This document shows, one piece after another, positions 13,042 through 16,914 of a stretch of DNA of 64,000 bases. The number at the start of each line of letters is the position of its first letter. Position 1 is the stretch's first letter. The position numbers were made by a program, and so were the translations under genes. Below the pieces are notes generated by a model. The model was not told where the DNA came from. It did no database searches and saw nothing but the letters and a program-made list of their open reading frames with translations. Source of the stretch: Jannaschia maritima (GTDB lineage: Bacteria > Pseudomonadota > Alphaproteobacteria > Rhodobacterales > Rhodobacteraceae); assembly GCF_030973515.1 (NCBI RefSeq), contig NZ_JARGZA010000006.1:124001-188000 (forward strand), given 5' to 3'.

Positions 13042-13647
13042 TCAGACCCAGGGACGCTCCCCCTGCATCCGGGATTCGAAGGCCTCGATCGCGGGCGCCT
13101 TCTCCAAGGTCAGACCGACATCGTCCAACCCTTCCAGCAGACAGCGGCGCTTGAACGAATCGACCTCGAACGGGATGCGGCTGCCGTCGGTCAACCACAC
13201 CTCCTGCGCTTCCAGGTCGACGGTGATGCGCGCGTTCTCGCCGTTCCGCGCATCCTCCATGATCCGATCCACCTGCTCCTGCGGCAAGGCGATGGGCAGG
13301 ATGCCGTTCTTGAAGCAGTTGTTGTAGAAGATGTCCGCGAAGGACGGCGCGATCACGCAGCGGATTCCGAAGTCCAGCAGCGCCCAGGGCGCATGCTCCC
13401 GCGAGGATCCGCAGCCGAAGTTGTCGCCCGCGACCAGGATCTGCGCATCGCGATAGGCGGGTTGGTTCAGCACGAAATCCGGAACCTCGCCGCCGTCGTC
13501 GTCGTACCGCATCTCGTCGAACAGGTTCACGCCCAGGCCGGACCGCTTGATGGTCTTCAGGAACTGCTTGGGGATGATCATGTCGGTGTCGACGTTGATC
13601 AGCGGCATGGGCGCGGCGACGCCCGTGATGGTGGTGAACTTGTCCAT
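13042..13647 (-). CDS. leuD: 3-isopropylmalate dehydratase small subunit
   Basis: Small (swivel-domain) subunit of isopropylmalate isomerase, which with LeuC converts 2- to 3-isopropylmalate. At 201 aa it has the normal length. Conserved blocks are [22 protein letters not shown], the signature [17 protein letters not shown] and a [23 protein letters not shown]-like C-terminal region. It is on the minus strand upstream of the membrane protein, EEP and leuB genes. leuC is not in this window, so it is not immediately next to leuD here. Confidence 0.95.
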
Positions 13648-13678: not shown

Positions 13679-14503
13679 CTACCCCTCCGGCACCGCGAAG
13701 GTCAACGCGGCCCAATGGGTGCCCCAGACCGGGTCGCCGTCCGCCGCGGGCTCCAAGGGTTCCAGCACGACGGCGTCCGCAAGATAGACGTGGCCCGGCG
13801 CCACGGGCAGGACCGCGACCCCGTCGGCGTCGGTGCGGTGCAGCGTGACCTCGACCGTGCCGTCGGGCCGGCGCGCGAACAGTTCAACCTGCGCGTCGGC
13901 GCGGGCCGCGCCGTCCCACAGCACGCGGACCGGCAGACCGCCCGTCACCTCGTCCGCATAGGGGTTCGCCAGCGCCACGATCTCGGAGCGCAGGCCGAAC
14001 GCGCGGTCCGACCCCGCCCCGTCGCCCACCGCCACCAGGGCCTTGGCATAGCGGCGATAGGATTCGCGCACGCCCTCGCGCGGCAGACCGCGGGAATCGT
14101 GGCGGGCGGCCAATTCGCCGAAGTCCTTGTGCGCGCCGAAGGCCAGGAACCGCTCCCACCCCGTGCGGCCGTCCTTGTCGCCATAGGTCAGCGTCGAATC
14201 GGCCGTCTCGTGAAGAATGACCAGCAGGCCGTCGGGAAGGTCCGGCACCGCGAAGGCGGGGCTGTCCCCCAGACGCGCGGGCACGGGTCGCACCGCATCC
14301 CCCACGGCCATGTCGAAGCGCACCGACCGGCGTGGGATATAGCTGAAGGCCGATCCGGCGAACTTCTCCCCGTTGCGGAAGTCGGCCGTGACCGTTCCAT
14401 TGGAGGGCACCGTCCAGTCCTCCGCGTCGATCCAGAACTCGTGACCTTGCGCCTGGAAGGCGGCGATGCACAGTGCGGCGGTCAGGATCAGGGAACGGAT
14501 CAT
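13679..14503 (-). CDS. DUF4198 periplasmic protein (probable metal-uptake accessory)
   Basis: A 274-residue exported protein. The signal peptide [20 protein letters not shown] is followed by [12 protein letters not shown], typical of DUF4198 proteins whose mature N-terminal histidine may bind metal. The body is beta-rich, ending with [20 protein letters not shown] and [14 protein letters not shown] (carboxypeptidase-regulatory-like fold). DUF4198 genes often accompany nickel/cobalt uptake genes, and here the partner is a divergent HupE/UreJ-like gene. The two ATG codons overlap in the sequence CATG (14501-14504). The ribosome binding site AGGAAG of this gene therefore lies inside the hupE-like coding sequence. 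Metal identity is an inference. Confidence 0.8.
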
Positions 14504-15668
14504 GGGGCTTCTTCCTGCACGGTTGGCGGCGGCGGCGGTCGCGGTCACGCTGGCGACCATCGGCGCTTCGGCGCACGAGGTCCAGCCCGCCGTCGCCGAC
14601 GTGACCGTCGGTCCCGACACGGTGACCATCGACCTGCGCGTCGCGGTCGAGCCGGTGCTGGCGGGCATCGACCTGGGGGCGGTGGGTGACACGGACGAAT
14701 CCCCCCTGTCCGCCGACAGCGACGCCTTGCGCGCACTGCCGCCGCAGGCGCTGGCCGACCGCCTGCGCGCGGACTGGCCCGACCTCGCGGACCGCATCAC
14801 CCTGCGGGCGGGGGACACAGCCCTCGCGCCGGAGCTGGCATCGGTCGAGGTGCCGCCGGTGGGCGACGTGGCCATCCGCCGCGACACCGCGCTGACCGTC
14901 CTGGCGCACCTGCCCGACGACGGCAGCGACGTGCGGTTCGGATGGGACCCCGAGCTCGGCGCCCTGATCGTGCGGCAGGGTGCGGGCGCTTCCTCCTACG
15001 AGGACTTCCTGACCGACGGCACCCTGTCCGAAGGGATGCCGCGCGGCGCGGTCGCCGAACGGCCCCCGGCGGAGGTGATCGCGCGCCACGTCGTGGCGGG
15101 CTTCGACCGCATCGTCCTGGAGCGTCCCGATCACGCCCTGTTCGTCCTGGGCCTGTTCCTCTACGCGCTCGCCTGGCGGCCCCTGCTCTGGCAGGTCGCC
15201 GCGTTCACGGCGGCCCACACCGCGACCCTGGCATTGGCCACGACGGGCCTGATCGCGGTGCCGGGCGGTTGGACGTGGCTGGTGGGGGCGACCATCGCCG
15301 CGTCGGTCGTCTATGTCGGGGTGGACAACATCCTGGGCGACCCTGCGCGGCGCGGCGTCACGGGGCCGCGCGTGGCGGCCGTGTCCGGCTTCGGCCTGCT
15401 GCACGGGCTGGGCTTCGCGGCCGCCCTGTCCGAGCTGGGTCCGGGCCGGCCCTCCGTCCTGTCGATCGTCGCGTTCGACGCGGGGGTCGTGTTGGGGCAT
15501 CTGGTCGTCGTCGTCGTCGCGTTCGGAACCCTCGTCGTGGCCTTCCGCCTGATGCCCGCGCCGCTGCGCGCCGGCAAGCCCGAGTTCCGGGCCGTGTCCG
15601 TGGTCGCATCCTTCCTGATCGCGGCCATGGGGCTTTTGTGGATCGTCGATCGGGTCATCTCGGTCTAG
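14502..15668 (+). CDS. HupE/UreJ-family membrane protein (probable Ni/Co transporter)
   Basis: A 388-residue protein with a signal peptide ending near residue 24, after which HEVQPAVADV begins the mature chain. A ~170-residue periplasmic domain follows, then about six membrane helices from residue ~200 on. The membrane part has family marks: ERPDHALFVLGLFLYAL, FTAAHTATLALA and VSGFGLLHGLGFAAALSEL, with the conserved histidines of HupE/UreJ proteins. It may import nickel or cobalt, needed for cobalamin-dependent steps or metalloenzymes. I chose the ATG at 14502, which follows CAGGGA by 6 nt and overlaps the start codon of the divergent DUF4198 gene. It is convergent with dddL (11 bp apart). 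Confidence 0.8.
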   Translation: MGLLPARLAAAAVAVTLATIGASAHEVQPAVADVTVGPDTVTIDLRVAVEPVLAGIDLGAVGDTDESPLSADSDALRALPPQALADRLRADWPDLADRITLRAGDTALAPELASVEVPPVGDVAIRRDTALTVLAHLPDDGSDVRFGWDPELGALIVRQGAGASSYEDFLTDGTLSEGMPRGAVAERPPAEVIARHVVAGFDRIVLERPDHALFVLGLFLYALAWRPLLWQVAAFTAAHTATLALATTGLIAVPGGWTWLVGATIAASVVYVGVDNILGDPARRGVTGPRVAAVSGFGLLHGLGFAAALSELGPGRPSVLSIVAFDAGVVLGHLVVVVVAFGTLVVAFRLMPAPLRAGKPEFRAVSVVASFLIAAMGLLWIVDRVISV

Positions 15669-15679
15669 GGGCGCCCCGG

Positions 15680-16369
15680 CTAACGCCTGCGCGGGCCGGA
15701 GAACTTCATCTCCTGACCGGCCAGGGCGCCGGGCGGGCCGATCCAGGCATAGGCGAGCAGGCAGGGCTCGCCCCCGCCGGTTGTGATCCGGTGCTCCTCG
15801 CCCGATCGGTTCAGGATCAGCGACCCCGGGGCATAGACGGCGGCGTTGTTCTCGGACCAGGCCCCCGCGATGGAGACATAGGATTCCTCGACCTCCGAAT
15901 GGCTGTGCTGCGGATAGGTCGTGTCGGGCGCGAACAGCACGATGCCCAGGATCAGCGCCTCCGACGGGACGGGACCGCGGGGGCCCAGCACCTCGGCATA
16001 GGCGTACTTGCGGGCCAGCGCGCGCGGCATCTTCTCGTACCCGTATTCCCAGGTCAGGGCATCGCGGACCTCGCGCAGGGCACGGGCCATGCCCTGCATC
16101 GCGCCGCGCTCGCCGACGTCCAGCGCGCGGGACAGGTGTCCGACCACGGGGCGGACGTCCGGCCTGCGGCTCCACACGGCGGGATCGGCGTCGAACGTGG
16201 CGGACAGGGCGCCGCGGACGGCCCGGCGATGCTGCCGGATGACCCTGCTGCCCCCGTCGCAGCCCTGCCCGTACAGAGCGTGGAACTCGCGCAACAGATA
16301 GAACCAGTCGGGCCGCTCCGACAGGCGGGGGGCGGGCGGCAGCGTGGCGACAGCCGGACCCGCGCTCAT
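15680..16369 (-). CDS. dddL: DMSP lyase, DddL type (cupin)
   Basis: Predicted dimethylsulfoniopropionate lyase, cleaving DMSP to dimethyl sulfide and acrylate. At 229 aa it has the DddL length. Family landmarks are DWFYLLREFHALY (residues 21-33), WEYGYEKMPRALARKYAY and the cupin metal block TYPQHSHSEVEESY. The metal ligands are probably His155, His157, Glu161/162, Tyr164 and His193 (GEEHRIT). The start codon overlaps the tspO stop (ATGA), so it is the last gene of crtI-crtB-tspO-dddL. This location, inside a carotenoid/photosynthesis operon, is unexpected. Other cupin functions cannot be excluded by eye, but the whole-length pattern resembles DddL. Confidence 0.82.
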   Translation of the reverse strand: MSAGPAVATLPPAPRLSERPDWFYLLREFHALYGQGCDGGSRVIRQHRRAVRGALSATFDADPAVWSRRPDVRPVVGHLSRALDVGERGAMQGMARALREVRDALTWEYGYEKMPRALARKYAYAEVLGPRGPVPSEALILGIVLFAPDTTYPQHSHSEVEESYVSIAGAWSENNAAVYAPGSLILNRSGEEHRITTGGGEPCLLAYAWIGPPGALAGQEMKFSGPRRR

Positions 16370-16830
16370 GCCGGAACGGCGTCCCGGTTGCGCCGCCAGA
16401 TGTCGAAGTTCAGCGCGCCGGCATAGCTGACCCAGACCAGATAGGGCACCGTCAGCCAGAACCCGATCCGGTCCAGGGGCCAGAGTGCCGCCAACAGGCC
16501 CGCGACGGCGAGCCACAGCACCACCAGCACGACCAGCGCCGCCCCCAAACGCCGCAATCCGAAGAAGACGGGCGTCCACAGCGCGTTGAACGCGATCTGC
16601 ATGGCCCAGAACGCTACCGCATGCGCCGAGCCGGGCAAGGGCGCGGCCCGCGCCGCCGTTACGGCCAACGCCAGGTACAGCGCCGTCCAAGCGACGGGGA
16701 ACAACCAGTCGGGCGGGGTCCAGGACGGCTTGTCCAACCGGCGGTACCAATCCCCCGGCGGGAACATCGCGCCGGTGGCGGCGGCCCCACAGCAGGCCGC
16801 GAAGAAAATCGCGAAGAGCGTCCAGTCCAT
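16366..16830 (-). CDS. tspO: Tryptophan-rich sensory protein TspO (CrtK)
   Basis: A 154-residue TspO/MBR (peripheral benzodiazepine receptor-like) membrane protein with five hydrophobic helices rich in Trp and aromatic residues. Recognisable parts are WYRRLDKPSWTPPDWLFPVAWT (split over residues ~28-50), NALWTPVFFGLRR and the C-terminal VPYLVWVSYAGALNFDIWRRN. In Rhodobacter, TspO binds tetrapyrrole intermediates and modulates expression of pigment genes in response to oxygen; the gene lies in the crt region there too. It starts 84 bp after crtB and its stop overlaps the dddL start. Confidence 0.93.
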   Translation of the reverse strand: MDWTLFAIFFAACCGAAATGAMFPPGDWYRRLDKPSWTPPDWLFPVAWTALYLALAVTAARAAPLPGSAHAVAFWAMQIAFNALWTPVFFGLRRLGAALVVLVVLWLAVAGLLAALWPLDRIGFWLTVPYLVWVSYAGALNFDIWRRNRDAVPA

Positions 16831-16914
16831 CGCCCGGGACCTAGCGCGGGGGCACGGGATCCCAAGGGGTGCTGCCACGCATCGCGGGGTCGCGGGTCGG
16901 GGACCGCATCCGGC

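Follow-up and report, generated by a model that had tools for sequence, protein, structure and literature searches.

Overlapping start codons and promoter-like sites at a conserved divergent junction of DUF4198 and HupE genes in Rhodobacteraceae

In the 64,000-nucleotide stretch of DNA analysed here (the window), the divergent genes for a DUF4198 periplasmic protein and a HupE/UreJ-2 membrane protein form an interlocked pair with zero intergenic DNA, and this junction is conserved. The start codons of DUF4198 (minus strand) and HupE (plus strand) overlap by two bases within one CATG, exactly at the positions that an earlier note on this DNA had given for both ATGs (Table 1). Lying on opposite strands with 5' coding ends that overlap by two bases, the genes are a divergent overlapping pair by definition. 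From the comparison of related junctions we consider it reasonably probable that this is a conserved arrangement in which the genes share CATG, carry their promoters in the opposite signal-peptide codons and have outputs that are likely tied together by polymerase collision.

Table 1 Coordinates of features at and around the DUF4198/HupE junction in the window
Feature	Positions	Strand	Basis
leuD, directly downstream of DUF4198	13042-13647	-	NF002458, E 4.1e-91
DUF4198 periplasmic protein, 274 aa, signal peptide 20 aa, mature N-terminus HEFW	13679-14503	-	PF10670, E 3.1e-25
DUF4198 signal-peptide codons; contain candidate HupE promoter and SD	14444-14503	-	sequence
Candidate HupE promoter, TTGCGC (14447-14452) N16 CACAGT (14469-14474), inside DUF4198	14447-14474	+	genus pattern
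AGGGA, SD-like, upstream of HupE ATG, inside DUF4198 codons	14490-14494	+	by eye; scoring counted AGG (3 bases) only
Overlapping start codons, CATG	14501-14504		minus ATG 14503-14501, plus ATG 14502-14504
HupE/UreJ-2 membrane protein with N-terminal Ang-1-type domain, 388 aa, signal peptide 24 aa, mature N-terminus HEVQP	14502-15668	+	PF13795
HupE signal-peptide codons; contain DUF4198 SD and, in relatives, DUF4198 promoter	14502-14573	+	sequence
AGGA, DUF4198 SD, inside HupE codons, nine bases before DUF4198 ATG	14513-14516	-	SD scoring
Degenerate remnant where relatives have the DUF4198 promoter, GTGACC (14548-14543) N18 AACCGT (14524-14519)	14519-14548	-	score -1.6
DMSP lyase cupin, convergent with HupE	15680-16360	-	PF16867, E 6.1e-44

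The shared start and its conservation

The DUF4198 protein scores 90 bits against PF10670, above the curated cut-off of 34, and has a conserved HEFW at its mature N-terminus, with H21, E22 and W24 invariant among 16 aligned relatives; signal-peptide cleavage and nickel binding are predicted. In HupE, the PF13795 (HupE_UreJ_2) domain spans residues 198-348 (E 1.4e-29, 103.2 bits against a cut-off of 24.5) and follows a periplasmic domain with an N-terminal His, and the signal peptides of both proteins end just before His-Glu. The solved structure of a HupE N-terminal domain (RbAng-1a, 9gce_A) aligns from HupE residue 25, which corresponds to its own residue 1 (E 7.4e-16), and the HupE start must therefore be upstream of residue 25. 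Passages of PMC12537917 describe the Ang-1 domain as a Cu- and Ni-binding anglerase and DUF4198 as a Ni-binding secreted protein, and place the latter among the frequent neighbours of Ang-1, in accord with the earlier description of the two genes as a metal-uptake pair.

Relatives that carry a name belong mostly to Jannaschia and other Rhodobacteraceae, most likely the window's own family. DUF4198 was present in 19 and HupE in all 20 of the genomes drawn from the window's genus, and in 154 and 187, respectively, of 295 genomes drawn from the family. The DUF4198 and HupE match lists supplied the family loci, apart from a few weak or fragmentary matches (for example G097, G183, G084, G102 and G158), and 98 stretches of the family census were taken by computed coordinates. 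With each distinct junction counted once, the census comprises 171 junctions, 158 of them at the level of Rhodobacteraceae. Both genes are present in 111 of the first 129 loci and are divergent and adjacent in all 111; HupE is not beside DUF4198 in 25/156 family loci.

An in-frame CATG is the start common to both genes in 129 of the 158 Rhodobacteraceae-level junctions, among them 91/118 from the family draw and 19/19 in the window's genus. The overlap, for which the earlier note had proposed a check of conservation, is thus kept across much of the family. Other overlaps or spacers take its place in 29/158 junctions, and in junctions that do not share CATG the best pair of starts usually lies no more than about 30 bases apart. 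In 147/158 junctions, the mature His codons of the two proteins are separated by a gap of 1 mod 3. In the same stretches, CATG occurs 173 times in phase against 14 and 10 times in the other two opposite-strand phases, which excludes a chance overlap; judged by these counts, the shared CATG is more than coincidence. A tree built from 171 mature HupE sequences requires at least 26 changes of the 'shared CATG' label, compared with 35.7 when labels are shuffled. Hence the label is clustered, yet often lost or regained, and exact sharing is not obligatory.

Outside the family, HupE lies divergently beside DUF4198 in 14 of the 16 DUF4198 genomes of a class draw, mostly with longer spacers; a shared in-frame CATG occurs in 3 and an in-frame GTCAA in 0 of the 13 resolved junctions there. 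Two AT-rich genomes, each from another alphaproteobacterial family, have tight junctions, possibly through independent tightening: the starts share CATG in one (L141) and touch as CATATG in the other (L146).

Each gene's ribosome binding site had been placed by the earlier note in the other's coding sequence, and ribosome-site-like sequences are indeed found there: the AGGA of DUF4198 was scored as such, and on the HupE side a three-base AGG was scored and read by eye as AGGGA. Over the 129 shared junctions, SD matches of at least four bases occur in 82 for DUF4198 and 86 for HupE, compared with 44.2 and 48.5 in synonymous controls. Around CATG, RNA folding is weaker than in synonymous controls on both strands (-6.2 vs -10.1 and -4.8 vs -9.5 kcal/mol), as expected for two real starts. 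A conserved RNA hairpin between the two SD sites was considered and, in view of this weak folding, rejected. A search for plasmid copies with annotated starts yielded only one distant HupE.

Promoter-like sites in the opposite gene's codons

Upstream of the DUF4198 ATG, 121 of the 129 shared junctions have TTGAC at a distance of 25-75 bases, most often 53, 56 or 59. In 112 of these 121 it is followed at exactly N16 by a -10-like hexamer (A at position 2, T at position 6), mainly CACCCT or CAGCTT, and each of the eight other spacings tried accounts for at most four junctions. The resulting consensus, TTGACA-N16-CA[CG]C[CT]T (CANCNT), lies inside the HupE signal-peptide codons, and the first position of its -10 is C, not T. 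A TTGACA-like -35, a spacer of 15-18, -11A and -7T occur together on the DUF4198 side in 112/129 shared junctions, the window not being among them, which suggests use of a sigma-70-type factor. Among relatives that have the canonical site are Jannaschia donghaensis and J. helgolandensis (loci L004 and L006). Operator-like repeats were not seen beside the site. Passages of PMC8407463 describe some Rhodobacter promoters without the last T of the -10; unlike these, the DUF4198 site retains it. In three junctions (L013, L078 and L128) just 35 bases separate the -35 from the ATG, so that the start of transcription would coincide with the start codon and give a leaderless mRNA.

The HupE text under this site is constrained at the level of codons. 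Under the -35 it reads Leu/Val-Ser, with the serine written TCA and followed by A, and under the -10 it reads Arg/Lys (AGG, AAG, AAA) followed by an NTG codon. In-frame GTCAA, which fixes the TCA serine, is present in 122/129 junctions as against 4.8 ± 2.1 expected by synonymous resampling, and TCA is rare in the mature part (31/464 Ser codons). Six-base words over-represented in the HupE region include TGTCAA (115 vs 5.0) and AGGGTG (39 vs 1.1). The codon that comes first under the -10 is AGG in 45 junctions; elsewhere in these regions it makes up 50/820 Arg codons. Among HupE genes that do not face DUF4198, none of the 15 that could be read has the site (20 were fetched, and 5 without a readable anchor were left out), and the same promoter pattern lies upstream of 2/25 DUF4198 genes without HupE compared with 110/129 paired ones. 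Measured from the -35, the DUF4198 ATG lies at a distance of 2 mod 3 in 120/121 junctions; the stretch from CATG to the core of the HupE signal peptide hence changes by whole codons only, and a HupE frame kept from CATG on favours translation of HupE from CATG and speaks against an inner start.

On the HupE side, a weaker, mirror-image site lies in the DUF4198 signal peptide in the window's genus. Of the 19 genus junctions, 15, the window's included, have the pattern TTGNNN-N16-YANNNT at a distance of 55-70 bases before the HupE ATG, and a HupE promoter within the DUF4198 codons is likely in the genus. TTGAA-type words are over-represented in DUF4198 codons of the whole set (TTTCAA 15 vs 1.6, TTCAAG 17 vs 2.9); outside the genus, TTGAA/TTGAT sites are only partially enriched, at distances that differ between clades. 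Over all 129 shared junctions, occurrences of TTGNNN-N16-YANNNT do not cluster in a single distance bin, and a uniform family-wide HupE promoter was not found, the genus pattern alone being convincing. Gapless motif sampling on this side returned the conserved HEFW codons only. The claim that both promoters lie within the opposite gene is thus well supported family-wide for DUF4198, through TTGACA-N16-CANCNT in HupE, and moderately, within the genus, for HupE.

In the window's species the predicted canonical DUF4198 promoter is lost. The best match in the window scores -1.6, whereas the median among relatives is 21.8; TTGAC is likewise missing from 7 other shared junctions. A promoter scan of the window with a consensus of E. 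coli type returned no site, and a looser scan of the gene pair returned one poor site, 977 bases upstream, so that neither scan gave another good DUF4198 promoter in the window. The arrangement may therefore be lopsided towards HupE in this species, as its DUF4198 promoter appears degenerate.

Directly downstream of DUF4198, in the window as in 19/19 genus loci (L029-L047), is leuD, and the DUF4198 promoter may also feed this leucine-synthesis gene. The one congener of 20 without DUF4198 (G009, locus L066) also lacks the Ang-1 part of HupE; its remaining HupE permease has a new N-terminus and faces leuD (1465-2379 minus, 2279-2884 plus), as if one deletion had taken both N-terminal halves. On the other flank, the DMSP lyase cupin is followed by TspO/MBR (16366-16878) and then by squalene/phytoene synthase (to 17889).

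Proposed working and alternative readings

If the junction works as we propose, the -35 box of DUF4198 would dictate the Leu/Val-Ser(TCA) pair in HupE and the -10 box the Arg/Lys(A..)-NTG pair. The promoters would point at each other, with start points that the -10 positions place, in the genus, about 18 and 23 bases either side of CATG. With start points about 40 bases apart, each transcript would cross the opposite promoter, and the 5' ends of the two mRNAs would be complementary over about 40 bases. Polymerase collision and occlusion would then, as the most likely working, tie the outputs of both promoters together, and any benefit would presumably lie in a ratio or mutual limit between the Ni-binding periplasmic protein and the metal-capturing permease. 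Interference or joint antisense control, which the earlier note had read from the overlap, would follow from the face-to-face geometry, the regulation itself being a proposal. A more far-reaching version, in which colliding promoters, each in the other gene's signal-peptide codons, dictate residues and act as a ratio control or switch for metal capture throughout the family, is one that we put forward only tentatively.

It is also conceivable, if not the reading we would choose, that the compact junction is frozen and without regulatory meaning, its signals having been embedded in the family ancestor, with few single mutations that separate the genes harmlessly. The longer-spaced divergent pairing in other alphaproteobacterial families would agree with this, as would the tendency of family junctions to remain within tens of bases even after loss of CATG and the lack of a visible operator-like repeat beside the promoter. 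However, a label that changes at least 26 times on the tree does not describe a trap, and the window and 7 others retain CATG despite a lost -35 box. We regard as unlikely the idea that TTGACA-N16-CANCNT is the binding site of a metal regulator controlling both genes, and not, or not only, the DUF4198 core promoter. Such a site could explain why the C at the first -10 position and the fixed N16 are so unusually strict, and both genes are metal-related, but the site has the sequence and spacing of a sigma-70 core promoter, including -11A and -7T, shows no dyad symmetry and lies upstream of the start, in a position that fits a promoter.

Two alternatives remain. One of the genes might start elsewhere, for HupE at 14466 or at an inner GTG/TTG, which would make the CATG overlap an annotation illusion. 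Candidate codons are common: the window's upstream ATG at 14466 is preceded by an SD-like GGAAGG, an upstream ATG of some kind occurs in 75/129 junctions, and an inner NTG-type start leaving at least 17 residues is available in 111/129 HupE signal peptides. This alternative is nevertheless very improbable: no start pair other than CATG is conserved across genera, the spacing of CATG and promoter keeps to whole codons in 120/121 junctions, and both sides show SD enrichment and low RNA structure. The start further inside, named in the earlier note as the counter-case, was looked for and is not supported by the 2 mod 3 spacing; inner HupE starts are excluded through arguments of frame and charge, not through an absence of candidates. 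Hardly credible at all is a Leu-Ser pair kept for signal-peptide function with the TTGACA match as a by-product: Leu/Val-Ser does recur among HupE signal peptides, but the serine is TCA with a following A in 122/129 junctions even though TCA is so rare a codon, and HupE genes not facing DUF4198 are without the site. We retain the interlocked pair with probably collision-tied outputs as our preferred reading.

Relation to known systems

Both protein families, their association, and divergent overlaps as a rare class were already known; the interlocked junction is apparently new. A literature search, with most subscription journals outside its reach, returned no description of a shared start or embedded promoter at the DUF4198/HupE junction. 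The closest account of the proteins, PMC12537917, treats the same two families, as Ang-1/HupE anglerase and DUF4198 nickel protein, and its structure (9gce) came from a Rhodobacteraceae HupE; it differs in that its section 8 part 1 and further passages make no mention of a shared start or embedded promoters. The junction ties DUF4198 and the Ang-1/HupE permease together as a physically joined metal-capture pair. It would also show that a gene's codons can harbour, and be shaped by, a promoter directed away from that gene, and here silent codon changes alone would suffice to test for transcriptional interference between face-to-face promoters.

The scbA-scbR pair of Streptomyces coelicolor resembles the proposed arrangement in its divergent genes, face-to-face promoters and overlapping 5' transcripts (53 bp there), and passages of PMC3134472 model its collision or interference together with antisense pairing as a switch. 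That system serves a butyrolactone signalling switch, and the passages do not describe a shared start codon. Here, unlike in scbA-scbR, the starts overlap by two bases, and a putative promoter lies in signal-peptide codons family-wide.

Surveys of overlapping genes include opposite-strand genes with overlapping 5' ends like these. In passages of PMC2478687, divergent overlaps make up 1% (457) of 42,055 overlaps, in line with the earlier note's view that face-to-face starts are rare, and PMC2174442 has 331 of 14,958 by its counts. According to passages of both surveys, such overlaps are under-represented, and those of more than 60 bp are deemed misannotation. Divergent overlaps are thus the rarest overlap class, often blamed on bad annotation; this one is conserved family-wide, with more than 100 distinct junctions that can be compared. 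Unlike the survey cases, this overlap of two bases is kept in many genera, and the codons themselves bear evidence of embedded signals.
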